Below are positions 25,946 to 61,334 of a DNA stretch of 64,000 nucleotides, in pieces. Every line of letters begins with the position of its first letter. The stretch's first letter is position 1. The stretch comes from Bosea sp. NBC_00550 (lineage in GTDB: Bacteria > Pseudomonadota > Alphaproteobacteria > Rhizobiales > Beijerinckiaceae): assembly GCF_026020075.1 (NCBI RefSeq), contig NZ_CP102772.1, forward strand, positions 4,926,501 through 4,990,500. Reading direction: 5' to 3'. The notes under the pieces are model-generated. The model saw only the letters and a program-made list of their open reading frames with translations. It made no database searches and was not told where the DNA came from. Made by a program: the position numbers and the translations under genes.

Positions 25946-27478
25946 CTACTTGAGGGTGACCTTGTCGAAGACCAGCGTTTCGTTGGGCTGGACGGCGAAG
26001 CCCTGCACGCGGTTCGCCACGCCGATCGCCTGGGTTTGGTACCAGAGGAAGAGGAAGGGCTGATCCTTCCACACGATCTCCTGGATCTCCCCGTAGATCT
26101 CCTTCTGTTTGGCCGGGTCGGTCGCAGCGCGGCCTTCCTTCAGAAGCCCGTCCACGCGCGGATTGGAATAGCCCGTGCGGTTGGCGCCGACGCCGGTGAA
26201 GAAGAGCCGATAGAGCGTGTAGTCCATCCCCGCCGTGGCGCGCCCGACCATGCCCATGTTGTCCGTGCGCTGCGCGGGCTCCATGCCGACGACCTTGGTC
26301 CAGGTGCCGCGATCAACGACAAGCGGCGTCGCCTTGATGCCGACATTCCCTAAGGACCCCGCCAGCGCCTGGCAGACCTGGACGTCCTTGATGTAGCGCC
26401 CGGTCGGACAGGTGAAGCTGAGCGCGAGCTGGCCCGGCTTGTAGCCGGCCTCCGCCAGCAGCTTCTTTGCGCCTTCGGGATCGAACTGGAGCAAGGGGAA
26501 GGTCTTGCGCAATTCATCCTGCGTGCCCGGGCCGACCATGCCGACCGATGGCGTGCCCAGCCCGCCCAGAACGCCCTTGGCGATGCCGTCGCGATCAATC
26601 GCGAGGTTCAGAGCCTTCCGGACCTTCGCATCGGCGAGCGGACCGCGCAGGACCATCTCCATGTTGACGGAGAACATGCTCGGCGGCGTCACGACCTTCG
26701 CGCTCTTCAGAGCGTTGATCGCGTCGATCGACTCCGGCGGCACACGCTCGACGATGTCGGCCGCGCCGGTTTCCATCAAAGCCATGCGCGAGCCGTCTTC
26801 GGGCACGACGCTGAAGTCGATCGCTTTGAGCGTCGCGGGATAGTCGCCCGCATATTTCGGGTTCGGCACGAGCCTGAAACCTTCGCCGCCGACGAAGCGC
26901 TCCACCATGTACGGACCGGAGCCGACCGGCTTGCGGCCGTACTCGGCCCCCATCTCCTTGAGCGCCTTGACGTTGACGATGCTCGCTGCCGTGTTGGCGA
27001 GCAGCATCAGGATATGGCCGTTGGGTTCGGCGAGATGAAACTCGACGGTGTCTTCCCCGACGGCCTTGATCGTGCCGAGCGAAGCGTAAAGGCCGCGATA
27101 GATCGAGCCCGTCTTCTCGTCCAGCATGCGATTGAAGCTGGCGGCGACGGCCTCGGCATTCAGCGGATCGCCGTTGCTGAAGGTCCTGCCGGGCTTGATC
27201 TTGACGGTGAACACCTTGCCGTCGGGCGAGAAGGACGAGTCGGTGGCCAGGCTCTTCTGGACGTTGTTCTGCGGGTCGAGCCGATAGAGCCCTTCGAGCA
27301 CGGCCAGGTCGACCGCGTTGCCCACGGGAAGATCGTTGAAGGCGGGATCGAAGGTCGCGGGATCGGCACCCACCGCCACGCGCAAGACGCCCGCAGGCTG
27401 GGCGAAGGCTTGCACGGCGGCCAGAGACAGACCGGCAACGAGTGCCGCCACGGTGGAGGAATGACGAAGGCTGCGCAT
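25946..27478 (-). CDS. Opp/Dpp-type solute-binding protein
   Basis: Family 5 extracellular solute-binding protein, 510 aa. A Sec signal peptide ends near AFAQ (residue about 27); the mature start VLRVAVGADPATFDPAF and LKIKPGRTF-like core segments are typical. Lobe order is canonical, with the second lobe beginning after KKLLAEAGYKPG near residue 340. It is the first gene of the importer-oxidase-deacylase operon and divergent from a LysR gene. The ligand is unknown: a peptide, opine or N-acyl amino acid is plausible. Confidence 0.9.
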   Translation of the reverse strand: MRSLRHSSTVAALVAGLSLAAVQAFAQPAGVLRVAVGADPATFDPAFNDLPVGNAVDLAVLEGLYRLDPQNNVQKSLATDSSFSPDGKVFTVKIKPGRTFSNGDPLNAEAVAASFNRMLDEKTGSIYRGLYASLGTIKAVGEDTVEFHLAEPNGHILMLLANTAASIVNVKALKEMGAEYGRKPVGSGPYMVERFVGGEGFRLVPNPKYAGDYPATLKAIDFSVVPEDGSRMALMETGAADIVERVPPESIDAINALKSAKVVTPPSMFSVNMEMVLRGPLADAKVRKALNLAIDRDGIAKGVLGGLGTPSVGMVGPGTQDELRKTFPLLQFDPEGAKKLLAEAGYKPGQLALSFTCPTGRYIKDVQVCQALAGSLGNVGIKATPLVVDRGTWTKVVGMEPAQRTDNMGMVGRATAGMDYTLYRLFFTGVGANRTGYSNPRVDGLLKEGRAATDPAKQKEIYGEIQEIVWKDQPFLFLWYQTQAIGVANRVQGFAVQPNETLVFDKVTLK

Positions 27479-27649: not shown

Positions 27650-27692
27650 GATCTATCTCAAATTCATAAATTTACGATCTATATGAATTGAG
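27650..27692. promoter_or_regulatory. Putative LysR operator region with repeated GATCTAT
   Basis: The gap between the divergent binding-protein and LysR genes carries GATCTATCTCAA (27650-27661) and GATCTATATGAA (27676-27687). It also has an inverted repeat CTCAAATTCAT / ATGAATTGAG (27657-27692, one-base bulge). The same 12-mer family recurs upstream of the permease at 29809. Confidence 0.6.
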
Positions 27693-27705
27693 GTTATGCT
27701 CTCCC

Positions 27706-28602
27706 ATGCATTACCGCCAGGTCGAAGTCTTCAAGGCCATCATGGATTCCGGCTCGATCACCGAGGCGGCCAACATCCTCCACATCTCCCAGCCGGCGGT
27801 CAGCAAGGCTCTCAAGCTGCTGGAGGCCGAACTCGGCCTGCGCCTCTTCGCCCGCACGACCAAGGGCATCGCAGCTACCGAGGAGGCTCGCCTGCTCTAT
27901 ACCGAGGTTGAGCGAACCTATTTTGGCATGCAGAACCTGTCGCGTTTCGCCGCCAGCCTTGGAGACCGCAAGCAGGGCCGTATCGTCGTCAGCACGATCC
28001 CCGCGCTCGGCATCGGCTGGCTTCCAGCGATGGTCGCCCGTTTCTCTGCAGCGCATCCGGACGTGGCGATCACGCTGCATTCGAGCAATTCGGTTGATGC
28101 CGCGCGCCTGGTCGGAAGCGGCGAGATCGATCTCGGCATCGCCCAGCTCCGAAGTGAGGAATACAACCTCTCCCGGCGCAAGCTCTTCGATCTCGAAGGC
28201 ATCATCGCGCTGCCCGAGGGACATCCGCTCGCGCGCAAGCCTGCCATCGAGGCCCACGACCTCGATGGCGAGACGATCGTCGCCCTCGGTCCGGACGACG
28301 AATTCCGCCGCAAACTGACCCAGGCCCTCGAAACGGCGGGCCAGCACCCGCGGACCATCATCGATGCGAGTCTCGGCCTTACGGTCTGTGCACTTGTCGC
28401 CGCCGGATGCGGAGTCGGCATCGTCGACAGCGAGGCCGCCCGAGAACGCGACAATCGCGGCCTTGTATTTCGCAGCTTCCGGCCTGCTATACGCGTCCCG
28501 ATCTTCCTTTTCCGCCAGCGCGGCCGGCCCACCAGCAGGCTCGTCGAGGCCTTCAGCGCCGGACTCAAGCCTCCGCCGCCTTTCTCCAATGCTCCGGTCT
28601 AG
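27706..28602 (+). CDS. LysR-family regulator, divergent from importer operon
   Basis: Regulator of 298 aa; HTH segment SGSITEAANILHISQPAVSKALKLLE near residues 15-40, then the effector domain to the end with a proline-rich tail. The ATG at 27706 (MHYRQVEVF) fits the family, though a TTG at 27688 keeps the frame open. It most likely controls the divergent importer-oxidase-deacylase operon. Shared motifs upstream of the operon at 29809 suggest it may act there too. Confidence 0.87.
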   Translation: MHYRQVEVFKAIMDSGSITEAANILHISQPAVSKALKLLEAELGLRLFARTTKGIAATEEARLLYTEVERTYFGMQNLSRFAASLGDRKQGRIVVSTIPALGIGWLPAMVARFSAAHPDVAITLHSSNSVDAARLVGSGEIDLGIAQLRSEEYNLSRRKLFDLEGIIALPEGHPLARKPAIEAHDLDGETIVALGPDDEFRRKLTQALETAGQHPRTIIDASLGLTVCALVAAGCGVGIVDSEAARERDNRGLVFRSFRPAIRVPIFLFRQRGRPTSRLVEAFSAGLKPPPPFSNAPV

Positions 28603-28698
28603 GTCATCGCATTGCGAGACGGCCGCGAATATTCACTGCGCCGAACCGCCTAATCCTGATCACAAATACGCGGCGGACGCATTCCTGCGAGGGGACGG

Positions 28699-29604
28699 AT
28701 GGCGATAAATCTCAGGCACGTCGAACTCTTCCGCCACATCATGCGCTTCGGCACGCTGACCCAGGCAGCCGAGATGATGTCCGTTTCGCAGCCCGCCGCC
28801 AGCAAGATGCTGTACCAACTCGAACGCGGCACCGGCATCATCCTTTTCCAGCGGACGAAAGGACGGCTCAAGCCGACGCGGGATGGCGAATTGTATTTCG
28901 CCGAGGTTCAGCGGACCTGGGAAAGCGTCGAGCGTCTCGAGCGGATGACGAAGGACATCCGCGAGCTCCAATTCGGACGTCTCAATCTCGGCGTCATGCC
29001 GATGCTGGCCGGGACGATCGTGCCGCCCTTGCTGACGCGCTTCTGCCGGAAGCACGAAAAGACGGCGGTCAAGCTGCATTCGCGCAGCTCCGATCGCATT
29101 ATCGAATGGGCCATCGCCGGGCAGATCGATCTCGGTATCACCGAGCATTCCACCCCGCATCCGAACGTGATCTGCCGCATGATCGCGCGCATTCCCAATG
29201 CCTGCGTCTTCCCCGACGGCCATCGTCTGGCGAGCCGGGAGAGAATCCGGCCGGAGGACCTCGACGGCGAAAGCTTCGTATCGATCGGGTCGGCCGACCG
29301 CCGCGCAGCAATCGAGAAGGTGTTCGAGCAAGCAGGCATCCTGCCGCGCATGTTCATCGATGCGCCGATGGCCAACGTCGCTTGCGCGATGGTGGCTAGC
29401 GGAGCCGGGATTGCCCTCGTCGACGAGGTCAATGCGCAGCAATTCGTCGGCCGAGGCCTCGTCGTGAGGCCTTTCGCTCCGGAGATCTTTTCGCCCGTCT
29501 GGCATGTGCGCCCCAACAGCCTGATCAGCTCCTCCCTGGCCGAGGCGCTGATGCGGGACATCGAGGACGAATTCGAGCGGCTCGGCTATCGCGTCGATCC
29601 ATGA
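28699..29604 (+). CDS. LysR-family regulator upstream of opine-type operon
   Basis: Regulator of 301 aa; HTH segment FGTLTQAAEMMSVSQPAASKMLYQLE near residues 17-42, effector domain after it. GAGGGG precedes the ATG. It lies in the same direction as, and 204 bases upstream of, the importer operon beginning at 29809, and is similar in architecture to the LysR gene just before it. It is the natural candidate regulator of that operon. Confidence 0.87.
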   Translation: MAINLRHVELFRHIMRFGTLTQAAEMMSVSQPAASKMLYQLERGTGIILFQRTKGRLKPTRDGELYFAEVQRTWESVERLERMTKDIRELQFGRLNLGVMPMLAGTIVPPLLTRFCRKHEKTAVKLHSRSSDRIIEWAIAGQIDLGITEHSTPHPNVICRMIARIPNACVFPDGHRLASRERIRPEDLDGESFVSIGSADRRAAIEKVFEQAGILPRMFIDAPMANVACAMVASGAGIALVDEVNAQQFVGRGLVVRPFAPEIFSPVWHVRPNSLISSSLAEALMRDIEDEFERLGYRVDP

Positions 29605-29706: not shown

Positions 29707-29783
29707 TTGACATAGATCAAATAAACCGACCCGGTTTTGGGCGTGCCGAACAGCATGTCTGGAACACAGGAGATCTATGTCAA
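29707..29783. promoter_or_regulatory. Inverted 12-bp repeat upstream of importer operon
   Basis: TTGACATAGATC at 29707-29718 and its exact reverse complement GATCTATGTCAA at 29772-29783, 53 bases apart, in an AT-rich gap. Each arm is followed by a similar AAATAAAC stretch. Two operator half-sites that could support DNA looping by a LysR tetramer are a plausible reading. Confidence 0.6.
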
Positions 29784-29808
29784 AAATAAACTGAGGGTGT
29801 TGTTCCGG

Positions 29809-30777
29809 ATGCGAATCGCCGTCTTTCTAGCGAGAAGGCTGATCTTTGCGATCTTGCTGATGCTCGGAGTCAGCGCGGCGATCTTCTTCCTGGTCAACGC
29901 CATCGGCAATCCGATCGAGTTGATGATGGCCGAGACGCCGGGCATGACTGGCGAGGTGATCGAGCGGATGAAGGCCTATTACGGGCTCGACCATCCCCCG
30001 CTCACCCGCTACCTGCTCTGGCTCGGGCGGCTGGCGCGCCTCGATTTCGGCACCAGCATCGTCTACAACCAGCCCGTCGGATCGCTGATCCTGACGTGGG
30101 GCTGGGAAACGCTAAAGATCCAGCTACCCGCGATCCTGATCGCTCTCGCTGTCGCAATTCTCTTCGGAATCACGGCCGCGCGCCGCCAGCATTCGCGCTC
30201 GGATTTCGCGGTGATGGGCACCGCGCTGCTCGGCCAATCACTGCCGGCCTTTTTCCTCGGCATCCTGCTGATCTTCGTCTTCTCGTACACGCTCGACTGG
30301 CTGCCTAGCTACGGCGCCTATTCGACGCGAAACCCGCTGTGGGGCAGCCCCGTGTTCGATGCGCTCTGGCACATGGTGCTGCCAGTGGCGATGCTGACAT
30401 TCTTCAACACCGCGACGCTGACGCTGCTGATGCGTTCCAACATGGTGGACGTGTTGAAGAGCGACTTCATCGCGGCAATGCGCGCCAGCGGCATTCCCGA
30501 ACGACGCGTCATCTTCGTTCATGCGCTGCGTGCGGCCTTCATCCCGATGCTGACCTATCTCGGTCTGCTGATCGGCCTGATGCTCGGCACGGCGCCGGTA
30601 ACCGAATCCGTCTTCACCTGGCCCGGGCTCGGCTACCTCTACATCTCGGCGATCCACCAGCTCGACTACCCCGTGATCATGGGCGCGAGCGCGGTCATCG
30701 CCTTCATGCTGATCTGCACGACGCTGCTGACGGACGTCATCTACGTCCTCATCGATCCCCGCATCAGCCTGGAGTGA
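29809..30777 (+). CDS. Opp/Dpp-type ABC transporter permease (DppB-like)
   Basis: Permease of about 322 aa with an N-terminal membrane segment (RLIFAILLMLGVSAAIFFLV), a periplasmic region with KAYYGLDHPPLTRY, an EAA-type loop near DFIAAMRASGIPERRVIFVHALR, and ending in VYVLIDPRI. The start is uncertain: ATG 29809 fits the family, but ATG 29755 and 29737 are in frame. It is the first gene of the plus-strand importer operon. Confidence 0.87.
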   Translation: MRIAVFLARRLIFAILLMLGVSAAIFFLVNAIGNPIELMMAETPGMTGEVIERMKAYYGLDHPPLTRYLLWLGRLARLDFGTSIVYNQPVGSLILTWGWETLKIQLPAILIALAVAILFGITAARRQHSRSDFAVMGTALLGQSLPAFFLGILLIFVFSYTLDWLPSYGAYSTRNPLWGSPVFDALWHMVLPVAMLTFFNTATLTLLMRSNMVDVLKSDFIAAMRASGIPERRVIFVHALRAAFIPMLTYLGLLIGLMLGTAPVTESVFTWPGLGYLYISAIHQLDYPVIMGASAVIAFMLICTTLLTDVIYVLIDPRISLE

Positions 30778-30782
30778 GCTGC

Positions 30783-31727
30783 GTGACCGACCAGACGATC
30801 ACGAGTCAGCCGCCTGTCGCGAAGTGCATCGCCAAGCCGGCCAAGGGCATCTGGCGACAGGGTTGGCAGCGCTTCAGCAGAAGTCGCACCGGCATGCTGG
30901 GGCTGGTTCTCGTGATGCTTGTCATCGCAACCGCCGTCGTCGGCCCGTTCCTCGCACCCTTCGATCCGCAGGACCAGAGCCCGATGATCGACCCCGGCGC
31001 CAAGGCACCGCCCAGCTGGACGCATCTGCTCGGGACCGATCGCATGGGCTACGATGTGCTGAGCCGCCTGATCTACGGCGCCCCGACAGCTCTCGCGGTC
31101 GGCCTCGGCGCCATGTCGATCGCCTCATTGATCGGCGTGCTGGTTGGTGGATTCGCCGGCTATCGTGGGGGCACGACGGATGAAGTGCTGATGCGCTTCA
31201 CCGACTTCTTCCTGGTCATCCCGGTCTTCGTGGTCATTCTTGCGGTGGTGCGGCTGCTCGGGGTCACGGTCGTCAACACGCCGCTCGAGAGCGTGCCCTA
31301 TCTCAACCTGAGCGTGATCATCCTGCTGATCGGCGTCTTTTCCTGGGCGCCGATCGCACGGATGACCCGCGCGGAATTCCTGCGGCTCAAGAACCAGGAG
31401 TTCGTCGAGGCGGCGCGATGCATCGGCGCGACATCCGGTGACATCCTGTTCCGCCATATCCTGCCCAATGCCTTGCCTTCGCTTGTCGTCATCATCGCGC
31501 TTGGCATCGGCGGCGCCGTGCTGTCGGAGGCGATGATCGGCTTCCTCGGCTTCGGGGATCCGGCCGCCGTGAGCTGGGGCCAGCTTCTCTACTTCAACTA
31601 CGAGGCTTTGAAGGTCGCGCCCTGGGCCTCGCTCAGCCCCGGTGCGGCGATCTTCCTCACCGTTCTCGGATTCAATCTCCTGGCTGACGGCCTGACCGAC
31701 GCCTTCAACCCGCGGGCGAAAAGCTGA
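30783..31727 (+). CDS. Opp/Dpp-type ABC transporter permease (DppC-like)
   Basis: Permease of 314 aa with HLLGTDRMGYDVLSRLIYG and an EAA-type loop (QEFVEAARCIGATSGDILFRH). A GTG start at 30783 behind GGAG is chosen, because the first in-frame ATG falls inside the first membrane segment. It starts 5 bases after the preceding permease gene and ends on the TGATG shared with the ATPase gene. Confidence 0.88.
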   Translation: MTDQTITSQPPVAKCIAKPAKGIWRQGWQRFSRSRTGMLGLVLVMLVIATAVVGPFLAPFDPQDQSPMIDPGAKAPPSWTHLLGTDRMGYDVLSRLIYGAPTALAVGLGAMSIASLIGVLVGGFAGYRGGTTDEVLMRFTDFFLVIPVFVVILAVVRLLGVTVVNTPLESVPYLNLSVIILLIGVFSWAPIARMTRAEFLRLKNQEFVEAARCIGATSGDILFRHILPNALPSLVVIIALGIGGAVLSEAMIGFLGFGDPAAVSWGQLLYFNYEALKVAPWASLSPGAAIFLTVLGFNLLADGLTDAFNPRAKS

Positions 31728-32809
31728 TGACGAGCCTCGCTGCCGAAAGACAGGCTGAAGCCGCTTCGCCGGGACGGTCCGAAGCTGCAAAAACACCGGC
31801 GCCGGTGCTCGTCTCCGTCGAAAACCTGCGTATCCAGTTCCCGCCCTGGAGCGCGCCGGTGCGGATCGTCGACGACGTCAGCTACCAGGTTCGTGCCGGC
31901 GAAACGATGGGCATCGTCGGCGAGTCCGGCAGCGGCAAGACGCTCTCCAGCCTGGCGATTCTCAACCTGCTTCCGCCTCCAGGGCGGATCGCGGGCGGGC
32001 GCATCGTCTTCGAAGGCGAGGATCTGGCGGCCAAGTCGCAGCGAGAGATGCAGAAGCTGCGTGGCCGGCGCCTGGCCATGATCTTCCAGAACCCCGGCTA
32101 TTCGCTCAACCCGCTGTTGACGGTCGGCGCCCAGCTCGCGGAGATCTTGAAGGTCCACGAAAAGCTGCCGCGTGCTGTTGCACTCCAACGGGTAGAGGAG
32201 CTGTTCCGCCTCGTCGGAATCACCGATCCGGGCCCGCGCCTGTCGCAATATCCGCACGAGATGAGCGGAGGCATGAAGCAGCGGGTCTGCATCGCACGTG
32301 CGCTGCTGTGCAATCCGGCTCTGGTGTTGGCCGACGAGCCGACGACCGCCCTCGACGTCACCATCCAGGCGCAGATCCTCGATCTGCTCGAGGAGCTGAA
32401 GCAGCGCCTGGGCATGTCGATGATCTTCGTCACGCACGACATGGGCGTGGTCGCGCGCATCGCCGATCACATCACCGTGATGTATGCGGGGCAGGTCTGC
32501 GAGACCGGCGACAAGCACGCCGTTTTCGCCCGCCCGTCCCACCCCTATACGCAGGCCTTGCTCGCCTCGACGCCGCGGATCGACAAGCGCTACGCCATCG
32601 ACGCCGCGGGGCGCCGCGAAAGGCTACCGACAGTCGGCCTCGCTGCGACTCCGGGGCAAACGCTCAGCGGCGGCTGCCGTTTCGCCGGTCGCTGCCCGGA
32701 AGCGATGCCGGAATGCTCCCGTCTCGTGCCACAGGCCGCGGCGATCGAGTCCGGCCGCGTCGTCCACTGCCTGAAGCGCGGCAGCACGGGGGTGCCCGGC
32801 CATGGTTGA
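31727..32809 (+). CDS. Opp/Dpp-type ABC transporter ATPase (DppD-like)
   Basis: ATPase of 360 aa: Walker A GESGSGKT, signature MSGGMKQR, Walker B LVLADEP, switch His in FVTHDMG, and the OppD-type extension SGGCRFAGRCPEAMPEC with cysteines. Its stop overlaps the next ATPase start by 8 bases. It forms a heterodimer with that partner. Confidence 0.9.
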   Translation: MTSLAAERQAEAASPGRSEAAKTPAPVLVSVENLRIQFPPWSAPVRIVDDVSYQVRAGETMGIVGESGSGKTLSSLAILNLLPPPGRIAGGRIVFEGEDLAAKSQREMQKLRGRRLAMIFQNPGYSLNPLLTVGAQLAEILKVHEKLPRAVALQRVEELFRLVGITDPGPRLSQYPHEMSGGMKQRVCIARALLCNPALVLADEPTTALDVTIQAQILDLLEELKQRLGMSMIFVTHDMGVVARIADHITVMYAGQVCETGDKHAVFARPSHPYTQALLASTPRIDKRYAIDAAGRRERLPTVGLAATPGQTLSGGCRFAGRCPEAMPECSRLVPQAAAIESGRVVHCLKRGSTGVPGHG

Positions 32810-33836
32810 GACCTTGATCGAACCGATGGCCGAAGCGCGTCAGCGGGTCGCGCAAAAGCCGCTTCTCAGCGTCGACGGGCTGGTGAAAAGCTACCCGCTG
32901 CATCGGCGAGGGCTCTTCCGCCAGAAGGTCACGGGCGAGATTCGTGCCGTCAACGACATCAGCTTCGACCTCGGCATCGGCGAGACGCTGAGCATCGTCG
33001 GTGAGAGCGGTTGCGGCAAGACGACGGCCGCACGCTCGATCCTGCATCTGGTCGCGCCGACATCCGGGTCGATCCGTCTCGGCGACACCGATGTATGCGA
33101 GACGTTCGGCCGGGATCGCCGGCCTGATGTCCTCGCGCTACGCCGGCAGATGCAATATGTTTTCCAGGATCCCTATCTCTCGCTCAATCCGCGCTGGAGC
33201 GTCCGGCAGATTCTCTCCGAGCCGCTGCGGGTCCATAGCCTTCTGCCGCAGTCGCAATGGGAGAGCGCGGTCGACGCCCTGCTGGAGCGCGTCGGCCTTC
33301 CGGCTGAGCATGCCGACCGCTATCCGCACGAATTTTCCGGCGGCCAGCGCCAGCGCATCGGCATCGCCCGCGCACTGGCGGTCGAGCCGCGTCTATTGAT
33401 CTGCGACGAACCGGTTTCCTCGCTCGATGTCTCGGTGCGTGCCCAGATCCTCAACCTTCTGGCCGAACTGCAGGAGGAGCTGAAGCTCTCCTATCTCTAC
33501 ATCTCTCACGATCTGAGCTCGGTACGCTTCCTGAGCAACCGCATTGCCGTGATGTATCTCGGCAATCTGGTCGAGGTCGGAGACGTCGACGAGATCTTCG
33601 CGCGTCCGCGCCATCACTATACCGCTGCCCTCATCTCGGCGATCCCGGTGCCGGATCCGGTACGGCAGAAGCCACGCGACGCGATCAGCGGCGAAATCCC
33701 CAGTGTCGTGAAACGCCCGCCCGGCTGCGTCTTCCATACCCGCTGCCCGGCTGCCTTGCCGGTCTGCTCCCAGCAGGTTCCGCCGCTGTCCGCGCCGGAC
33801 GGCACCCACGCCTTTGCTTGCCACAATCCGCGCTGA
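32802..33836 (+). CDS. Opp/Dpp-type ABC transporter ATPase (DppF-like)
   Basis: ATPase of 344 aa: Walker A GESGCGKTT, signature FSGGQRQR, Walker B LLICDEP, switch His in YISHDLS, and the terminal PPGCVFHTRCPAA extension. The start overlaps the preceding ATPase gene. It completes the importer together with the binding protein encoded after the next gene. Confidence 0.9.
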   Translation: MVETLIEPMAEARQRVAQKPLLSVDGLVKSYPLHRRGLFRQKVTGEIRAVNDISFDLGIGETLSIVGESGCGKTTAARSILHLVAPTSGSIRLGDTDVCETFGRDRRPDVLALRRQMQYVFQDPYLSLNPRWSVRQILSEPLRVHSLLPQSQWESAVDALLERVGLPAEHADRYPHEFSGGQRQRIGIARALAVEPRLLICDEPVSSLDVSVRAQILNLLAELQEELKLSYLYISHDLSSVRFLSNRIAVMYLGNLVEVGDVDEIFARPRHHYTAALISAIPVPDPVRQKPRDAISGEIPSVVKRPPGCVFHTRCPAALPVCSQQVPPLSAPDGTHAFACHNPR

Positions 33837-33861
33837 ACGCGGACCACCACAGGACCATGCC

Positions 33862-34974
33862 ATGATGAACGTCATCGTCGTCGGAGCCGGAATCGTCGGC
33901 AGCTCGGTTGCCTATCGCATCGCGCAAGGCGGCGCGAAGGTCACGGTGCTGGAGGCTGACCGCATCGGCGGCGGTACCTCCGGCGTCAGCTTCGCCTGGA
34001 CGAATTCCAACAATAAGACGCCGCGTCCCTATCACGACCTCAACGTCGCCGGCATGCGTGCCCATGCCGCGCTGAAGGAGGAATTCGGTGCGACGCCGTG
34101 GTTCCATCAGAGCGGCAGTCTCGAATGGCGCGTCGATCCGGCAGATGTCGCGGCGCAAGCCGAAAAGGTCGTGCGGCTGCTCGAATGGGGCTACGACGTC
34201 CAGATTATCGACAAGAAGCGGCTCGGCGAGCTGGAGCCCGAGATTGCGCTGGACGCTGTCCCTGATGCCGCGCAGATCGTCTTCTGCCCTGAGGAGGGCT
34301 GGGTCGACCCGGTTCTCTATGCCGGCACGATGCTGCGAGCCGCACGCCAGCGCTACGGCGCCGCCATCAGGACAGGGGTCAGGATTACCGGCCTGGAGAC
34401 GCGCAACGGCCGTGTGATCGGCGCGCGAGACGATAGCGGCGCGCTCCATGAAGCCGATCTGGTCATCAACTGCACCGGGCGCTGGTCGAACGAGACGGTC
34501 AGCCAGACCGTGCCGAACATTCCGCTGGCGCCCACGGTCGGTTTCCTGGTCTTCACCCCGCCGGTCGGCGTCGAGCTGCGGCGGCCGTTCCATGCCCCCG
34601 ATGTCGATGTTCGTCCGGACGGCGCCGGCCGGCTGATGGTGCGCAAGGACTCGCTCGACGACCGCTTCGCGGCGCTCGAAAGCCGCACGCCGGACTGCGA
34701 GGAGGCCCGGATCGCCATGGAAAGCGCCGCTGAAATCCTGCCGGGCCTGAAAGGCGTCAAGGCAGAGGCGGTGCGGACGACGGTGCGGCCGATTCCGGCA
34801 GACGGGCTCTCGACCGTCGGGCCGGCGCGCGGTGTCGATGGCTATTACGTGGTCGTGACCCATAGCGGCGTCACGCTTTCGCCCTTCCTAGCGCAGGCCG
34901 TGGCGGACGAGGTGCTGCACGGGCGCCAGAGAGCCGAACTCGACCAGTTCCGCCCGGCGCGCTTCCAGGCCTGA
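33862..34974 (+). CDS. DAO-type FAD-dependent oxidoreductase (copy 1)
   Basis: Flavoprotein of 370 aa with the FAD motif VIVVGAGIVGSSVAYRIA and a C-terminal THSGVTLSP FAD-binding signature. It is a close paralog of the protein encoded at 37971-39074; both share GGGTSG-SFAWTNS-NK and NIPLAPTVGFLVFTPP. No signal peptide. The operon setting with an importer and an opine-dehydrogenase-like enzyme suggests oxidative cleavage of an imported secondary amine, imino acid or D-amino acid. ATG 33862 or 33865 may be used. Confidence 0.84.
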   Translation: MMNVIVVGAGIVGSSVAYRIAQGGAKVTVLEADRIGGGTSGVSFAWTNSNNKTPRPYHDLNVAGMRAHAALKEEFGATPWFHQSGSLEWRVDPADVAAQAEKVVRLLEWGYDVQIIDKKRLGELEPEIALDAVPDAAQIVFCPEEGWVDPVLYAGTMLRAARQRYGAAIRTGVRITGLETRNGRVIGARDDSGALHEADLVINCTGRWSNETVSQTVPNIPLAPTVGFLVFTPPVGVELRRPFHAPDVDVRPDGAGRLMVRKDSLDDRFAALESRTPDCEEARIAMESAAEILPGLKGVKAEAVRTTVRPIPADGLSTVGPARGVDGYYVVVTHSGVTLSPFLAQAVADEVLHGRQRAELDQFRPARFQA

Positions 34975-35021
34975 AGACACCGGGGCTCCGGTTTCCAATC
35001 ACACAAAAGAAGGGGAAAGCG

Positions 35022-36764
35022 ATGACTGAGAAATCGACGCGACGTGATGTTCTCAAATGGACCGGGGCCGGAGCGGCGGCGCTCGCGGCTGGCGGGCTGC
35101 CGGAGCCTGCCTTGGCCAAGCCGCCCTTCTTCAAGCTCTATCTGATGATCTTCAACAACCTGCAGTCGCGCATGATCTGGACCGACCTGATCGGCAAGCA
35201 GTTTGCGCGGCTCGGCATCGACGTCAACGCCAGCTACCAGCCTCCTTCCGTCGTGATCGCCAGGCGCGCAAACGACAGCGGCAAGACCCATGTCGAAGGC
35301 GGCTTCGACATGTATTCCGAGAGAATCTACTATAGTGGCTTGTCCCCGAGCCCCGAAACGCTGTTTCACAGCAAGAACATTCCGCCCAACGGACAGAATT
35401 ATTATCGCGTCGCGGACAAGCAGATCGACGAGTCGATTGAGAGATATTCTCGCGCCGTGACGGCGGAAGACCGCAAGGCGGCGATGAATGCGTTCGTGAA
35501 GCGCTGGTACGAGATCGAGCCGCTCCATATGGTCTTCTATCCGGAGGAGGTGATCATCACCAACCCCAAGCTGAAGGGCCTGGAATCGACGACCTACAAC
35601 CCGGTCTTCTATCCGCGCCCCGAGGACTGGACGATCGAGGGCGCCACCGGCGACGTCACCGCCACTTTCGCATCCTGGCAGCCGCCGAGCCAGCTCATCC
35701 CGATGTATGGCAGCGGCTACAACGAGGCCAACATCTTCGGCCCCGCCTACAACGCGCTGATGGAATACGACAGCTGGGCCAACAAGAAGCTGGTTCCGGC
35801 ACTGGCGGAATCGGTCAAGGGCTCGGAAGACGGCAAGACCTGGGTGCTGAGCCTGCGCAAGGGCGTGAAGTGGCATTCCGGCGAGGAGTTCACGGCCGAA
35901 GACGTGAAGTTCACCTGGGATACCATCATCGATAAGGCCTATGCGAGCCTGTTCCAGGCGCCGCTCAGCACGGTGATGGGCTCGTCGGACGCATACAAGA
36001 TCACCGGCACCCACGAGATCACGGTCACGCTGCCGCAGCCGAACGCGATGTTCCTCGACTTCCTGATGCCGGTCATCGCGATCATGCCGAAGCATGCCTA
36101 CAAGGGCCTGAAGCCGGAGGAGCTGCGTGGCCATGTAATCAGCACCTGGCTGGGCACCTTCCCGGTTAAGACCTCAGACGGCAAGGTCTTCGAAGCCAAA
36201 GGCGCCGTCGGCACCGGGCCGTGGATCCCGCAGGGTTTCGATCCTTCCCGCAAGGCCTACAAATACAGCAGGAACGAGAACTACTGGAAAAAGACCGAAG
36301 GCAACGTCAAGACCTTCTATGTCGTCAACATCCAGGGTGCGGATGCCCTGCTCAGCGCCATCAAATCCGGCGCCATCGATGCTCACGACCCGATGTATGA
36401 CGTCGGCGGCCTGCTCGACACGGTCGATGCGTCCTGGGGCAAGGTCAATCGCTTCGACTCGTTCAAGTGGATGCAGACCTGCCTCAACATGGACCATCCG
36501 GTGTTCGGAACCGGTGTGGAGACGCCGCTCGGCAAGCAGGATCCCAGCCGCGCTGCCGAGGCCGCCGTGTATGTCCGCAAGGCGATGAGCCACATGATCC
36601 CGCGCGAGCAGATCATCAAGAACGTGGTCTCGGGGTTCGGCAAACCAGGCACGGTGCCAATGCCCTTCACCTCCGAATACTACGATCATGATGCGCTGAA
36701 GCCGATCTCCTACGACTTCAACCTGGCCAAGCAGTATATGGAAAAGGCCGGCTACAAGTATTGA
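35022..36764 (+). CDS. Solute-binding protein with circularly permuted lobe order
   Basis: Family 5-type binding protein, 580 aa. A Tat-type signal (TRRDVLKW, cleavage near ALA-K33) is followed by residues about 33-206, which resemble the C-terminal lobe of this family (adaptor helix MIWTDLIGKQFARLGIDV, then ADKQIDESIERYS...RWYEIEPLHMVFYP). Residues about 208-580 then carry what is normally the N-terminal part (LVPALAESVKGSEDGKTWVLSLRKGVKWHSG), and the protein ends at LAKQYMEKAGYKY, where the canonical second lobe would begin. AAAGAAGGGGAAAG precedes the ATG. It is the binding protein of this operon's importer; the ligand is unknown. Confidence 0.82.
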   Translation: MTEKSTRRDVLKWTGAGAAALAAGGLPEPALAKPPFFKLYLMIFNNLQSRMIWTDLIGKQFARLGIDVNASYQPPSVVIARRANDSGKTHVEGGFDMYSERIYYSGLSPSPETLFHSKNIPPNGQNYYRVADKQIDESIERYSRAVTAEDRKAAMNAFVKRWYEIEPLHMVFYPEEVIITNPKLKGLESTTYNPVFYPRPEDWTIEGATGDVTATFASWQPPSQLIPMYGSGYNEANIFGPAYNALMEYDSWANKKLVPALAESVKGSEDGKTWVLSLRKGVKWHSGEEFTAEDVKFTWDTIIDKAYASLFQAPLSTVMGSSDAYKITGTHEITVTLPQPNAMFLDFLMPVIAIMPKHAYKGLKPEELRGHVISTWLGTFPVKTSDGKVFEAKGAVGTGPWIPQGFDPSRKAYKYSRNENYWKKTEGNVKTFYVVNIQGADALLSAIKSGAIDAHDPMYDVGGLLDTVDASWGKVNRFDSFKWMQTCLNMDHPVFGTGVETPLGKQDPSRAAEAAVYVRKAMSHMIPREQIIKNVVSGFGKPGTVPMPFTSEYYDHDALKPISYDFNLAKQYMEKAGYKY

Positions 36765-36846: not shown

Positions 36847-37935
36847 ATGCGTGTCGCAGTGCTCGGTGCGGGCTCGATTGCCTATGGCAATGCCGCTCTT
36901 CTTTCTTCTCTCGGCCACGAGCCGGTTCTGTGGTCGCCGTCCGGCAAGAGCGGCCAGAGCATCGCCAAGGGCGAAGCGCTGACCGCGACGGGCAGCCTGT
37001 CCGGCAGCTTCAAGGTCGCCATGGCCGCGAGCGCGGCCGAGGCTGTAGCCGGTGCCGGCGCCGTGCTCTTCGCCCTGCCGGCGAACGGCCACCGCAAGGC
37101 CATGGACGCCGCGGCCGCCCATCTCGTCTCCGGGCAGGTCGTCATCATCAGCTCCCATACGTCGTTCAGCGGTCTCTACATAGCGCGCAGGATCGCCGAG
37201 CGCGGCCTGGACGTACCCGTCGTCGTCTGGGGAACGACCGTGACCGCGGGCCGCAGAACCGGCGATGCCAGCGTCAACGTTTCGACGATCCGCTCGAAGG
37301 TCGACATCGCCACAATCCCCGTCTCGGCTTCCGAGCGCGGCATGAAAACCTGCCAGGAGCTGTTCGGCGATCGTTTCGTCCAACGCGACGACGCGCTTGC
37401 GATCTCGCTGTCGAATCTCAATCCGCAGAACCATCTCGGCATCGCGTTGTGCAACTTCACGCGCATGGAGCATGGCGAGACCTGGGGCCAGAACGAAAAC
37501 AACACCGATTCCGTCGGCCGCCTCCTCGAAGCCCTCGACGCTGAGCGCCTCGCGATTGCGGAGGCCGCAGGCTACAAGGTGCGCACCATTCGCGAGCACT
37601 ATAACCTCTCCTTCCATGTCGAGCCCGGCCCCGTGGGCGAGATGGCCCGTCAGCTTGCCGCGCGCGGCAATGGCGGCAACGGGCCCAGCAACATCGATAC
37701 GCGCTATGTCCTGGAAGACGCACCCTTCGGCCTGCATCCGACAGTCCTTCTCGGCAAGATGGCTGGCCGCCCCGCGACGCTGCATCAAGCCGGCGTCGAC
37801 ATCTTCTCGGCGCTCTACGGCAGGGATTTCGCGGCGGAGAACGACCTGCTCGCCGATATCGGCCTGGAAGACATGTCGCTGGGCGATCTGAAATCGCTTG
37901 TCCGCGATGGCTGGACCAGCAAGCGCGCGGCCTGA
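36847..37935 (+). CDS. Opine/octopine dehydrogenase-like NAD(P) enzyme
   Basis: Protein of 362 aa with an N-terminal Rossmann domain (VAVLGAGSIAYGNAALL, residues about 3-19) and a C-terminal octopine/nopaline-dehydrogenase-type helical domain. NPQNH (about 192-196) places a His where opine dehydrogenases have their catalytic His. Such enzymes reductively condense amino acids with keto acids, or run the reverse. In an importer operon it probably works on an imported opine-like secondary amine. The ATG at 36847 starts the Rossmann motif; 17 further codons upstream are open but not family-like. Confidence 0.8.
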   Translation: MRVAVLGAGSIAYGNAALLSSLGHEPVLWSPSGKSGQSIAKGEALTATGSLSGSFKVAMAASAAEAVAGAGAVLFALPANGHRKAMDAAAAHLVSGQVVIISSHTSFSGLYIARRIAERGLDVPVVVWGTTVTAGRRTGDASVNVSTIRSKVDIATIPVSASERGMKTCQELFGDRFVQRDDALAISLSNLNPQNHLGIALCNFTRMEHGETWGQNENNTDSVGRLLEALDAERLAIAEAAGYKVRTIREHYNLSFHVEPGPVGEMARQLAARGNGGNGPSNIDTRYVLEDAPFGLHPTVLLGKMAGRPATLHQAGVDIFSALYGRDFAAENDLLADIGLEDMSLGDLKSLVRDGWTSKRAA

Positions 37936-37970: not shown

Positions 37971-39074
37971 ATGACTGAGATCATTGTAGTCGGTGCCGGC
38001 GTCCTCGGGACGTCGGTCGCCTATCGGCTCGCGCGCGCCGGCGCCAAGGTCACCGTGCTGGAAGCGACCCGCGTCGGCGGGGGCACGTCGGGCATTTCCT
38101 TCGCGTGGACGAACTCCAGCAACAAGTCGCCGCGCGCCTATCACGACCTCAACGTCGCCGGCATGAAGGCGCACGCCGCCCTGAAAGACGAATTCGGCGC
38201 GACGCCCTGGTGGCATGGCGGTGGCCGTGTCGAATGGAGAGCTGAACCGGAGCAGGCTGCCCTTAAAGCCAAGGTCGAGCGTTTGCAGAGCTGGGATTAT
38301 GCGGTCGAGTGGATCGATCGCAAGCAGTTGCTCGAACTGGAGCCGGACATCGCGCCCGAGGCGATCGGCGATGCGCCGATCGCCTGGTGCCCGAATGATG
38401 GCTGGCTCGATCCCGTGGTCTATGCCCACGCGATGATGAGCGCTGCCCGGCGGCACGGCGCAACCCTGCGCACCCAGACGAGGATTTCCGGTTTGATCGT
38501 CGAGAGCGGCAAGGTTAAGGGCGTGCGCAGCGAAGGTGGCGAAAGCTTTTATGCCGATCTCGTTGTGAACTGCACCGGCCGTTGGTCGAACGACACCATC
38601 GGCTCGGACCTCCCGAACATACCGCTGGCACCGACCGTTGGCTTTCTCGTTTTCACCCCGCCCGTACCAGCGAGCATCCAACGTGTCGTCGCATCACCGG
38701 TCTGCGATTTTCGCCCGGATGGAGCCGGTCGTTTGATGCTGCACTGGGGCGCTGCCGATGCGACCGTCACGCCCGAGATCGGGGTCAACCCCGGAATGGA
38801 ACAGGCCGCGGATCTCGTCGATCGCCTCACCCGCATCCTGCCGGGCATCGCACCCGTGAAGCCGGAAGCTGCGCGCGTTACTGTGAGGCCGATTCCGAAG
38901 GACGGCCTGTCAGCCATCGGACCCGTCCCGGGCGTGGAGAACTATTACGTCATGGTGACGCATAGCGGTGCGACGCTCTCCCCCGCGCTCGGCGCCATGG
39001 CCGCAGACGAAATCATCAACGCCACAGAGCGGCCCGAACTCGAGAGCTTCCGGCCCGCCCGCTTCTTTGCCTAG
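37971..39074 (+). CDS. DAO-type FAD-dependent oxidoreductase (copy 2)
   Basis: Flavoprotein of 367 aa, FAD motif IIVVGAGVLGTSVAYRLA, C-terminal THSGATLSP. It is a clear paralog of the protein at 33862-34974 along the whole length, so a duplication within the operon is likely. Divergence in the middle (about residues 80-130 and 240-290) may reflect different substrates, for example the two products or stereoisomers of one opine. It is the last gene of the operon. Confidence 0.83.
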   Translation: MTEIIVVGAGVLGTSVAYRLARAGAKVTVLEATRVGGGTSGISFAWTNSSNKSPRAYHDLNVAGMKAHAALKDEFGATPWWHGGGRVEWRAEPEQAALKAKVERLQSWDYAVEWIDRKQLLELEPDIAPEAIGDAPIAWCPNDGWLDPVVYAHAMMSAARRHGATLRTQTRISGLIVESGKVKGVRSEGGESFYADLVVNCTGRWSNDTIGSDLPNIPLAPTVGFLVFTPPVPASIQRVVASPVCDFRPDGAGRLMLHWGAADATVTPEIGVNPGMEQAADLVDRLTRILPGIAPVKPEAARVTVRPIPKDGLSAIGPVPGVENYYVMVTHSGATLSPALGAMAADEIINATERPELESFRPARFFA

Positions 39075-46289: not shown

Positions 46290-47236
46290 CGCGTCGCCCT
46301 CCGCAGGCGCGGATCGATCAGCAGATAGAGCGCATCGACGAGCAGGTTGATCAGCACCGAGACGAGAGCCGACAGCATCACCAGCCCGAGCAGGAGCGGC
46401 ATGTCGCGCGTCTTGATCGCCTGCAAGGTGATCTGGCCGATGCCGGACCGTCCGAACACGGTCTCGGTCAGGATCGAGCCGGCCAGAACACCGGCGAAGA
46501 GCGTGCCGGTGAGCGTCGAGACCGCGAGCGCGGCATGCCGCAGCGCATGACGCAGGCGCAGCTGCGTTTCGCTGACGCCGCGTGTCCGGACGGTCAAGGC
46601 GAAGGGTTGCAGGAGCGCTTCCTCCAGCCCGTCCCGCAAGACCTGGCTCAGCAGCGCCGCGAGGGGCAGGCTGAGCGCGACGGCGGGCAGAACCAGGGCA
46701 TGGATGCCCTCTCCGCCGATGATCGGGAACCAGCCGAGATAGAAGCTGAAGACCGTCAACAGCAGAAGGCCGACCCAATAGACCGGCGTGCTCAGCACGG
46801 CGAGCTCCAGGCCGGCAAGAAGGGTCCGCAGGCCCTTGCGCCGCCCGGCTGTAGCCAGGGCGTTGACGAAGGCGAGGCCGAGAGCCAGCGCCATCGCCGT
46901 GCCCGCGAGCTGTACCGTCGGCCCGGCCGCCTCGCTGACGACGTCCACGACGGGCTGCCGGTATTGATAGCTCTGGCCGAAATCGCCGAGCAGCGCATGG
47001 CCGATATAGCGCGCATATTGCACCGCCAATGGCTGATCGAGCCCGAATTGTTGGATCAGCGCCTCGCGCTCGGCCGCGTCGACGATGTTCTCGCCTCCGG
47101 TGAGAACCGCGACGGGATCGCCGGGAATCGCCTTGACCGCCACGAAGGTGATCGTGGCCGCGCCCCAGAGCACGGCGACGACCACCCCAAGGCGCCTCAG
47201 CCCGACGGGCAAGACCTTACGGAGCCAGCCAGGCAT
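46286..47236 (-). CDS. Opp/Dpp-type ABC transporter permease (DppB-like)
   Basis: Permease of 316 aa: N-terminal membrane segment followed by KAIPGDPVAVLTGG, QFGLDQPLAVQYARYIG, and a C-terminal ALYLLIDPRL. The ATG at 47236 lies 20 bases inside the upstream binding-protein gene, so the two are coupled. No unusual residues seen. Confidence 0.9.
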   Translation of the reverse strand: MPGWLRKVLPVGLRRLGVVVAVLWGAATITFVAVKAIPGDPVAVLTGGENIVDAAEREALIQQFGLDQPLAVQYARYIGHALLGDFGQSYQYRQPVVDVVSEAAGPTVQLAGTAMALALGLAFVNALATAGRRKGLRTLLAGLELAVLSTPVYWVGLLLLTVFSFYLGWFPIIGGEGIHALVLPAVALSLPLAALLSQVLRDGLEEALLQPFALTVRTRGVSETQLRLRHALRHAALAVSTLTGTLFAGVLAGSILTETVFGRSGIGQITLQAIKTRDMPLLLGLVMLSALVSVLINLLVDALYLLIDPRLRRATR

Positions 47237-48890
47237 CGTAGAAGTTCGGCTTCGCGTTCGTTGCCCAGCTGATGCCTTGCAGCTTCTTCGAGGCGCCGAG
47301 CTGATAGGCGGCGACATAGAGCGGCACGGCATAGGCCTGGCCGATGATCTCGGCCTGCGCCTGGCCGTAGAGTCGCCGGCGCTCGTCGCCGGTGGCGCCG
47401 ATCGCCTTCGTCAGGATGTCGTCGAGGCTCTTCACGCGGGCGTTGTTGGAGCCATTCGGAGGAATATAGGCCGAATGGAAGACGGTCCGCAGGATGTCCG
47501 GCTCGGCGCGCACATAGTATAGCGAGGTGAGATCATAGTCGTTCGCCCCCGTGCGGGCCGTGTAGCCGCCGGCATCGACCGGATCGAGCTGCAGGTCGAA
47601 GCCCGCCTTCTTCACCGAGAACTGGACGGCCTGGGCCAGCGTCAGGTCCGAGGCGCCCCAAGCGGCCGCGTCGTAGACGAAACGGACGGCGAGCCGTTCT
47701 CCGCCCTTCGCGCGAATGCCTTCGGCATCCCTGGCGCTCCAGCCGGCCTCGTCGAGCAGCCTCGCGGCCTTCTGCGGGTCGAAGCCCCAGCCCGATGCGA
47801 TCTTCGGGTCGTGGTAGAGCGTCGAAGGGCCGAGGATATTGTCGGCCGCCTTCAGGCTGCCGAAGAAGGCGGCCTTGACCGCGGATGGCGCATCGACGGC
47901 GCTCTGGAAGGCCTGGCGGACGCGGGCATCGGCGAAAGGCCCCCGGCTCGTGTTGAGGAAAAGCGCGCGGTTCACGCCGGGGTTCTCCCGCGTCACGACC
48001 TGAAGGCGATTATCCGCCTGGACCGTTCGGAAATTGGCCGGCGGCACCTCGTCGATCGCTTGTGCCTGCCCGCTGCTGAGAGCGCCGAGGCGAACGGAGG
48101 ATTCGGGCAGATACCGGAACACGATGGCGTCGAGATGGGCCGGCCCCTGATGCGCCGCATAGCCGGGGCCCCAGTTGTAGTCGCCACGCTTGGTCAGCCG
48201 GCTGCCGCTGCCCTTGGTGAAGCTTTCGAGCAGGAACGGGCCTGAGCCGATGACGGTATTGGTCGTGCTCTTGGCATTGCGCAGATAGGTCGGCGACTGG
48301 ATGCCGAGATAGGGCAGGCTGAGCCCCTGCAAAAGTGGCGCGAAGGACTGCTTGTAGGAAATGACGAGGGTCCCGGAATCTGGGGCCGCGATGCTGTCGA
48401 CCGGCCCAAGCAGCGATTTCGCGTAGCTCGACGTGGTTTTGGGGTCGAGGATGCGGTCGAAGTTGAACTTCACCGCTTCGGCATCGAGCGGAGTGCCGTC
48501 GCTGAAGGTCACGCCGCGTCGCAGATGGAAGGTGTAGACGGTGTTGTCGGCGTTCACCTCCCAGCGTTCCGCCAGCCAGGGCGCGAAGCGATTATCCTCG
48601 GCCTGGCCGACAAGGGAGTCGACGAGATTGCGCGTGATGAGCGCCGTGATGGAGTTGCCCGTGATCGAGGGGTCGATGATCGCTGTGTCGCTCGCCAGGC
48701 CCACAGTCAGCGTACCACCAGCGACCGGCTTGCCTGCGGGCTGGTTGTCGGCGGCGAATGCCGGGCTGCCCGTCGCAAGCAGGGAAACGGCAACTGCCGC
48801 CGCAAGCAGGCGATGTACACGAGCAGGAGCGGCGTTATGAGGGGATGGGCGCCACGCGCGGCGGACAGTGTGGAGTTCGGCCTGATTCAT
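47217..48890 (-). CDS. Opp/Dpp-type solute-binding protein, SAM-riboswitch operon
   Basis: Family 5 binding protein, 557 aa; Sec signal peptide with a positively charged N-terminus and cleavage near AFA-A48; canonical lobe order (GGTLTVGLASDTAIIDPS at the mature N-terminus). GAAGG precedes the ATG. It is the first large gene downstream of a SAM-II-type riboswitch and the 33-codon ORF. Related in sequence style to the tandem binding proteins at 58002-61311 (FRYLPESSVRLGALSSGQ versus FLPESSVPTGALSSGQ). A sulfur-containing ligand is inferred from the riboswitch. Confidence 0.88.
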   Translation of the reverse strand: MNQAELHTVRRAWRPSPHNAAPARVHRLLAAAVAVSLLATGSPAFAADNQPAGKPVAGGTLTVGLASDTAIIDPSITGNSITALITRNLVDSLVGQAEDNRFAPWLAERWEVNADNTVYTFHLRRGVTFSDGTPLDAEAVKFNFDRILDPKTTSSYAKSLLGPVDSIAAPDSGTLVISYKQSFAPLLQGLSLPYLGIQSPTYLRNAKSTTNTVIGSGPFLLESFTKGSGSRLTKRGDYNWGPGYAAHQGPAHLDAIVFRYLPESSVRLGALSSGQAQAIDEVPPANFRTVQADNRLQVVTRENPGVNRALFLNTSRGPFADARVRQAFQSAVDAPSAVKAAFFGSLKAADNILGPSTLYHDPKIASGWGFDPQKAARLLDEAGWSARDAEGIRAKGGERLAVRFVYDAAAWGASDLTLAQAVQFSVKKAGFDLQLDPVDAGGYTARTGANDYDLTSLYYVRAEPDILRTVFHSAYIPPNGSNNARVKSLDDILTKAIGATGDERRRLYGQAQAEIIGQAYAVPLYVAAYQLGASKKLQGISWATNAKPNFYDAWLAP

Positions 48891-49007
48891 TGAGAAACCT
48901 TCAGATGAAAAGCAGCATCGGCGCGGGCCTGCGATGGCCGCGACCTTGAGCCTTTGGCGCGTTGAAAATCGGTGTTTGGTCGAAGCTGTGCCGGTGAGGT
49001 CGGCGGT

Positions 49008-49109
49008 CTACTTCCCGCCACGACGAGGCGTTTCGCCGGTGCGGGTCCAGTGCAGAAAAGCAGACAGGCGCAGCAGAGCGTGGACGATGAAATTGAAGGG
49101 CACAATCAT
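49008..49109 (-). CDS. Small 33-residue ORF downstream of SAM-II-type riboswitch
   Basis: ATG at 49109 with GAGGAAA six bases before it; stop TAG at 49008-49010. The peptide has a hydrophobic, possibly membrane-inserting first part (residues 1-21, MIVPFNFIVHALLRLSAFLHW) followed by a basic tail with RRGGK. It sits between the riboswitch terminator and the binding-protein gene, 117 bases before the latter. It could be a leader peptide or a small membrane protein; no homolog is recognised. Confidence 0.55.
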   Translation of the reverse strand: MIVPFNFIVHALLRLSAFLHWTRTGETPRRGGK

Positions 49110-49120
49110 GGGCTTTCCTC

Positions 49121-49152
49121 AAAATAAAAGGAGCCCACGGCTATGCTCGTGG
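49121..49152 (-). terminator. Intrinsic terminator of the riboswitch leader
   Basis: On the minus strand, CCACG-(loop)-CGTGG within 49135-49152 is followed by GCTCC and TTTTATTTT. It lies directly after the aptamer, suggesting control of transcription elongation. Confidence 0.7.
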
Positions 49153-49201
49153 TGCTTTTAGCATTGGTGACGCGGTGCAAGCTGCTCCAACAAATCCCGC
49201 G
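49153..49201 (-). promoter_or_regulatory. SAM-II-type riboswitch aptamer
   Basis: Minus-strand leader with the order of conserved blocks expected for SAM-II: P1 5' arm CGCGG (49201-49197), then GATTTG, then CTTGCA, P1 3' arm CCGCG (49175-49171), a short linker with ACCAAT and GCTAAAA (from 49162). AGCA in the loop can pair with TGCT for the pseudoknot. SAM-II elements are known from alphaproteobacterial methionine and sulfur genes; here it controls a peptide-type importer operon. Identified from a remembered consensus, not a covariance search. Confidence 0.72.
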
Positions 49202-49262
49202 AACGTCATGGTCGGAACCACGGCGATATCAGTAATAATCGTTTGGTGACGGCGCTCCGTCA

Positions 49263-49290
49263 ATCGAATGGCTTTTCAAATACATTCGAT
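49263..49290. promoter_or_regulatory. Inverted repeat upstream of the riboswitch operon
   Basis: Perfect 8-bp arms ATCGAATG / CATTCGAT with a 12-base spacer, in the gap between the LLM gene end and the riboswitch. No T run follows on the minus strand, so an operator is likelier than a terminator. Confidence 0.45.
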
Positions 49291-49383
49291 CGCAAGCAAA
49301 AATCCGCTTCGGCCGGGCTCCGGGACGGAATGTTCGACCCGCGCGGCTTTACCGGGAGCTATTCGGCGCGATGCGCCGCGCCG

Positions 49384-52422: not shown

Positions 52423-52425
52423 TAA

Positions 52426-61311: not shown

Positions 61312-61334
61312 GGCGTCGTTCCTTTTTTGCAGCG

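Follow-up and report, generated by a model that had tools for sequence, protein, structure and literature searches.

Does the solute-binding protein encoded at 35022-36764 of the window (the whole stretch of Bosea sp. NBC_00550 DNA that was analysed, 64,000 nucleotides) carry its two lobes in a rotated order? An earlier note had assigned this protein, as a natural circular permutation, to family 5, which ranks among the large families of receptors that serve bacterial importers. We found that canonical profiles, reverse matches and relatives all support this core claim. The best explanation is that the gene encodes the periplasmic receptor of an Opp/Dpp-type importer with a circularly permuted cluster C flytrap, a reading to which we give a probability of roughly 0.92.

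The gene, its export signal and its operon

The reading frame was intact, from the ATG at 35022 to the TGA at 36762-36764, and its swapped order is common to 18 relatives, in agreement with the earlier description of an intact gene. The signal at the N-terminus exceeded the cut-offs of both Pfam TAT_signal (22.9 versus 22.7 bits) and TIGR01409 (21.6 versus 16.7 bits), confirming the proposed Tat type, and by this signal criterion the protein is predicted to be Tat-exported. The features of the locus are collected in Table 1.

Table 1. Coordinates of the binding-protein gene, its parts and the neighbouring operon genes in the window
Feature	Position	Strand	Basis
LysR-type regulator, upstream of operon	27688..28602	+	PF03466, PF00126
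Importer permease B (Opp/Dpp type)	29737..30777	+	PF00528; Opp2B/Opp4B under cut-offs
Importer permease C, start not fixed	30669..31727	+	PF00528 and OppC_N
Importer ATPase D	31727..32809	+	ORF, named from sequence; conserved beside binding protein
Importer ATPase F	32802..33836	+	ORF, named from sequence; conserved beside binding protein
DAO-family FAD oxidoreductase 1	33859..34974	+	PF01266, E 2.7e-56
Ribosome-binding-site-like AAGGGGAAAG, purine-rich, upstream of ATG	35010..35019	+	read directly
Circularly permuted family-5 (cluster C) solute-binding protein, 580 aa	35022..36764	+	
Tat signal peptide, about residues 1-31, RRDVLK motif	35022..35114	+	Pfam TAT_signal, TIGR01409
Residues 33-175, lobe 2 second part, canonically C-terminal, here N-terminal	35118..35546	+	canonical profiles from residue 42/48; weak Pfam
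Residues 176-177, putative equivalent of second hinge crossing (MppA 507-508)	35547..35552	+	profile mapping; predicted strand 169-180
Residues 178-205, canonical C-terminal tail of lobe 1	35553..35636	+	36-row profile to residue 205 = position 534/536
Residues 206-476, lobe 1 from canonical N-terminus on	35637..36449	+	
Residues 477-478, putative equivalent of first hinge crossing (MppA 286-287)	36450..36455	+	profile mapping; predicted strand 474-479
Residues 479-580, lobe 2 first part, terminal AGYKY; canonical proteins go on	36456..36761	+	A3 to 361; model residue 580 = AppA 346/504
Opine dehydrogenase family protein; ORF from TTG 36796, ATG 36847	36847..37935	+	PF02317, E 3.8e-30
DAO-family FAD oxidoreductase 2	37971..39074	+	PF01266, E 3.5e-59

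The operon proved to be a complete importer operon, as had been claimed, with two permeases recognised by Pfam (BPD_transp_1) and two Opp-type ATPases named from sequence, the gene set that accompanies a receptor of the Opp/Dpp/Nik type; no second family-5 gene was found in it. Both permeases and both ATPases adjoin the binding protein in the loci of 16 of the 18 relatives; in L015 the importer genes are encoded on the other strand, L024 is truncated where its locus stops, and L021 is without them. The stretch 27688-29604 probably holds a second, tandem LysR-type regulator before the importer operon, with weak similarity in neighbouring loci. Three further canonical family-5 binding proteins were observed on the minus strand at 47217-61416; those at 58002-60089 and 59680-61416 are 72-73% identical in aligned columns, and their longest ORFs overlap.

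The neighbouring enzymes offered a hint of the cargo. The opine dehydrogenase homologue of the window matched N-(1-D-carboxylethyl)-L-norvaline dehydrogenase (PDB 1bg6, E 2.2e-31). Of the 18 relatives' loci, some of them truncated, 8 encode such a homologue and 8 encode a DAO oxidase (at least 47%). The next gene encoded an NtaA/DmoA-type monooxygenase above cut-off in all five loci scanned for it (L017, L024, L027, L042 and L043); L018 had a luciferase-like monooxygenase, and in L019 the one tested ORF further downstream was a hydroxyacid dehydrogenase. Breakdown of EDTA and NTA proceeds through an FMNH2-dependent monooxygenase and an iminodiacetate oxidase, according to the excerpted text of PMC7312458. 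Because of these neighbours and this route, our best guess is that the ligand of the window's subfamily may be an opine or an aminopolycarboxylate, which would be oxidised inside the cell by the neighbouring enzymes after import. Several distant permuted members adjoin peptidase or hydantoinase-like genes, and cargo therefore probably varies across the subclass.

Order of the parts along the chain

The window protein scored 197.4 bits against Pfam SBP_bac_5 (PF00496, 368 positions; gathering cut-off 32.4), with residues 256-579 on profile positions 1-279. Its N-terminal segment (about residues 33-206), scanned alone, aligned to positions 292-354 at E 0.096, under the gathering score, and NCBIfam gave no match to it. 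The canonical binding protein at 25946-27478 on the minus strand was collinear with the same Pfam profile (73-394 on 2-331). When the segment was compared with this protein by hhalign, the probability was 22% (E 0.00097; aligned control residues 431-496). NikA (2noo), the best PDB sequence, had no significant second stretch matching the segment, and 43 of the 44 matches to the window protein in its own genome began at query residue 208 or later. Library and single-sequence searches thus pick up at most a faint signal from the segment.

Profiles built from canonical proteins detected it clearly. A profile of 11 such proteins (A3, 535 positions) placed residues 42-192 on positions 378-521 and residues 207-579 on positions 38-361, so that the normal N-terminal part lies downstream of the segment, as the earlier note had read it; the protein ends at AGYKY. 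DppA, MppA and the protein at 25946-27478 each gave one collinear match to A3, and the use of the last as an in-window control was thus well founded with both Pfam and A3. The segment scored 58.4 bits against A3, compared with 9.0 for the best of 2000 shuffles and -5.0 for the reversed segment; by part, A3 gave 54 bits to the segment and 178 to the remainder. As the segment itself had led to three of the A3 rows (L035-L037), the test was also run with a 36-row canonical profile (536 positions) from which they were left out. This profile placed residues 48-205 on 384-534 (i-E 1.8e-12) and 213-579 on 45-366 (i-E 1.8e-58), scored the segment on its own at 46.7 bits, against a maximum of 4.4 in 2000 shuffles, and returned the swapped order in all 19 proteins of alignment A6. 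The bit scores and shuffles carry more weight than the E-values, because the latter refer to small home-made sets.

The relationship was also seen in the reverse direction. On L035, a canonical protein, a profile of the permuted family (A1) gave rotated matches (211-336 on 61-180, 512-575 on 317-379 and 44-185 on 405-538), and it was likewise rotated on the in-window control and on MppA. A segment-only profile (A2) found matches at E <= 1e-8 in four of 385 alphaproteobacterial genomes; one was the window's own, and the other three were canonical proteins matched near their C-terminal ends (E 7.7e-11 to 3.9e-9). Among E. coli proteins, A2 matched the end of MppA (390-524, i-E 6.6e-5), and its match to DppA was not significant (i-E 0.26). 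The order of canonical cluster C proteins, namely lobe 1, a contiguous lobe 2 and a C-terminal tail of lobe 1, was thus found rotated, and the separate alignment of the two parts to family-5 profiles, which the earlier note had put forward as a check, gave matches to both. At the level of sequence, this family-5 (cluster C) binding protein is thus shown to be circularly permuted, and the rotated order to be conserved and broadly distributed.

Structure prediction was in keeping with this. A first AlphaFold2 model from 19 permuted rows only was not usable (pLDDT 51.3, pTM 0.56). A second model, from alignment A5, was one compact protein (pLDDT 81.4, pTM 0.83), and one compact fold is predicted for the window protein. 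The A5 rows were selected so that 14 canonical C-terminal halves and 5 N-terminal parts mostly met their proposed homologous parts; because this choice favoured permutation homology, the model is supporting and not independent. Another alignment (A4), in which all canonical halves were mixed, was discarded because the C-terminal halves landed at the wrong end. With permuted rows only, MAFFT (--auto and --localpair) placed 14 of 14 canonical C-terminal halves mostly on residues 33-209, and --retree 2 placed them less cleanly (73-129 residues within 33-209); once canonical N-terminal parts were added, none of the 14 fell there. In a fold search with the model, residues 206-580 corresponded to the first two-thirds of cluster C chains. 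Among the best 50 rows, residues below 202 stayed outside the alignments, as expected for a permutation because the aligner is sequential, and the search is no test of those residues.

Relatives and the number of origins

A search for other proteins with the same order, also called for by the earlier note, returned both close relatives and distant members. Scanning genome contigs with the window protein gave 23 loci, 18 of which (L011-L028) cover the query in permuted order, collinear with the window protein and 58-91% identical; their hosts are Bosea, Microvirga, Acetobacteraceae and allies, Reyranella and some less precisely named records, a Desulfobacterales MAG among them. The other five match only inside residues 221-579; four are canonical by profile order, and in the fifth (L029) an insertion prevents classification. 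In the Desulfobacterales MAG (L021), the permuted protein groups with alphaproteobacterial ones, importer genes are absent beside it and a masked stretch lies upstream; transfer or MAG contamination may account for this.

Plasmid records extended the range to Neorhizobium (62% identity), Salipiger (57%) and the archaeon Halorussus (25%), the last in a single collinear match over residues 106-580. Further plasmid searches used the Halorussus and then the Neorhizobium galegae protein as query. Among 457 plasmid records matched at E <= 1e-20, there were 48 whose matches span 80% or more of the permuted query, in 47 cases as one piece, and these 48 include Neorhizobium, Nitratireductor, Microvirga, Roseomonas, Ketogulonicigenium, Maritalea and many haloarchaea. 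Twelve plasmid loci were examined (L041 and L044-L054), and 11 were permuted. The Nitratireductor plasmid record NZ_CP029209.1 (L044) has at least two places that match most of the permuted query, at 248607 and 518880, and that at 248607 is permuted. In the Rhizobium plasmid locus L054 (5956-8514), two tandem incomplete family-5 copies lie in canonical order in one frame, the sort of arrangement able to yield a permutation. Two haloarchaeal permuted proteins, L041 (8485-10455) and L052 (5962-7887), run about 40 residues beyond the AGY helix; a search of the haloarchaeal C-termini for a leftover duplicate was negative, the canonical profile halting at 373 in L041, and the two tails, into which that profile does not reach, may be either leftover lobe 2 sequence or new.

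By profile order, 32 of 66 ORFs in a first set were permuted, 31 canonical (collinear) and 3 unclassified, and in a second set of 29 the numbers were 12, 16 and 1; neither 32/66 nor 12/29 is a prevalence, the loci having come mostly from searches with permuted queries or their relatives. The first set left out ORFs below 380 codons and five loci taken as copies (L001, L009, L034, L010 and L040), and the 11 proteins of A3 belong to its 31 canonical ORFs. Within the family to which the window belongs, the close form occurred in 2 of 298 genomes. When A1 was run on 398 genomes of the phylum, with at most three candidates scored in each, only the window's own protein matched at E <= 1e-22. The broader profile A6 matched both halves in at least 13 of 385 alphaproteobacterial genomes, a lower bound, because no genome contributed more than three scored candidates and the list of matches was cut. 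A scan of viral contigs with the permuted profile found no relative, and a profile search of the PDB found no junction-spanning sequence among the best 60 of 117. Together these proteins form a conserved permuted family-5 subclass that is not an accident and is apparently undescribed.

We then considered how often the permutation arose. When a tree was built from the larger part (63 rows, 317 columns), two strong groups of permuted proteins emerged, of 21 rows (100/100) and 11 rows (99/98), which were joined in 54% of bootstraps; the larger part alone is compatible with one or two origins. In a tree of both parts (53 rows, 460 columns, ten rows, mostly near-copies, having been removed), they came together as a single clade with support of 94/82 (not starred), recovered in 95% of 200 bootstraps, the bootstrap being not fully settled. 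The cuts in most members of both groups lie in the same profile stretch, at about positions 361-386, and many members of the second group retain more of the loop at the C-terminus. From these sequences a single origin is favoured, though not proven. We think it rather probable that one ancient permutation founded a subclass, 'cluster Cc', common to Alphaproteobacteria and haloarchaea, in which hinge and cleft were kept and the exported or membrane-anchored N-terminus moved from lobe 1 to lobe 2; such an event could, for example, have been a tandem duplication of the gene, after which the outer halves were lost.

It is possible, but on balance unlikely, that two lineages were permuted independently at the same loop, one being the subfamily of the window protein and the other the broader group from Alphaproteobacteria and haloarchaea. 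The low joint support of two individually strong groups on the larger part fits such a history, as do their C-termini, which read ...AGYKY and similar in the window's group and a longer ...AGY plus GKLHYPG in much of the other; the single clade of the both-parts tree and the shared stretch of the cuts argue against it. Somewhat more doubtful still is a chimera, in which one family-5 protein supplied its C-terminal half and a different one, joined on behind it, the N-terminal two-thirds, giving an identical fold from parts of different ancestry. The two parts are unequally conserved (the 54 and 178 bits of A3), and the authors of the TpMglB-2 study raised the same possibility for their protein in the excerpted text of PMC4990184. 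Against this, the permuted proteins were held in one clade better with both parts than with the larger part alone, and the added segment therefore does not pull them apart.

Two other readings fare far worse than the permutation. That the segment is an unrelated extra domain on a truncated canonical protein, the outcome against which the earlier note had set its claim, is very improbable: its Pfam match is poor, and DUF5996 reached E 0.032, but the canonical-profile scores stand far above both shuffle maxima, and the permuted-family and segment-only profiles matched canonical proteins in return. An assembly error, frameshift or decaying gene is hardly credible, with no supporting sign found, a clear start and stop, 18 relatives sharing the part order and numerous invariant residues, and the same order in plasmid records described as complete.

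Position of the ends and comparison with known receptors

To place the new ends, the profile mapping was referred to MppA of E. coli, in which one lobe comprises residues 288-506 and the hinges are 286-287 and 507-508 (excerpted text of PMC6022919). Residue 579 of the window protein maps to MppA 374, within lobe 2. The cut thus falls just past MppA 374-375, about 87 residues beyond the first hinge and in a variable loop, and the proposal that the new termini lie at the lobe junction did not hold. The related claim that residues 33-206 represent the C-terminal lobe was correct as to family-5 C-terminal sequence, but the segment is not exactly one lobe: about 33-175 belong to lobe 2, 176-177 are the putative hinge equivalent and 178-205 are the tail of lobe 1, whose end merges into the canonical N-terminus at about residues 206-212.

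We infer the following path for the chain. It would start in lobe 2, cross to lobe 1, run through the whole of it and cross back to end in lobe 2; lobe 1 would be one continuous stretch (about 178-476), and lobe 2 would be split (33-175 and 479-580). The canonical C-terminus would lead straight into the canonical N-terminus within lobe 1, and the new ends would open in a lobe 2 loop right after the 'AKxxxExAGY' helix. Equivalents of both hinge crossings, at 176-177 and 477-478, are putative, coming from profile mapping and predicted strands only. With both apparently kept, ordinary flytrap closure is therefore expected, and the suggestion of changed hinge motion or ligand access found no support; closure on the ligand and docking would be like those of ordinary relatives. 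What would be altered is the start of the chain, the exported N-terminus departing from lobe 2 and not from lobe 1. Haloarchaeal members have lipid-anchor-like motifs near the N-terminus (LSGC and LAGC, read by eye), and this anchor-like end would likewise depart from lobe 2, as would the Tat end in the window protein.

Among those listed, the family and structure matches of the window protein were to family 5 or cluster C. Both of its parts are homologous to those of the canonical cluster C proteins AppA, DppA, OppA, MppA and NikA, which serve the same importer type and to whose two hinge crossings it has putative equivalents; unlike them, it has a rotated chain with its ends in lobe 2, lobe 1 continuous and lobe 2 split. 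EppA, the EDTA-binding protein of Chelativorans, is also of cluster C and perhaps has similar cargo, degraded by a flavin monooxygenase and an iminodiacetate oxidase; unlike the window protein it has a contiguous Domain III, and 'permut' is absent from the main text of that paper (PMC7312458). Natural permutation in an importer receptor is likewise known from TpMglB-2 (Tp0684), a glucose-binding protein of cluster B ('Cluster Bc'). Its permutation occurs in several lineages, reorders the N lobe and requires a fourth cross-over (excerpted text of PMC4990184). It belongs to another binding-protein class and has an extra crossing, whereas the window protein keeps the usual two putative crossings. 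Glycine-betaine binders are a third case of natural permutation, and they are a different class of binding proteins from family 5. For these proteins (2B4L, 1R9L and 1SW1), the excerpted text of PMC2395249 describes, by structure comparison, a permutation relative to molybdate-binding proteins and CysB. Among the open-licence papers listed, we found natural permutation in such other classes only, and none in family 5 or cluster C.

Half-length profile matches, together with annotations as 'ABC transporter substrate-binding protein', conceal the rearrangement, and in permuted proteins the transfer of binding-site residues by DppA or NikA numbering will fail to find them. The natural cut also indicates a cut point for engineered sensors of family 5 or cluster C. 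With a conserved subclass of this kind, nature would have tested whether the position of the chain ends, and of the export signal or anchor, bears on folding, closure and docking; if the reading is true, the subclass reveals what in an importer receptor depends on the anchor site.
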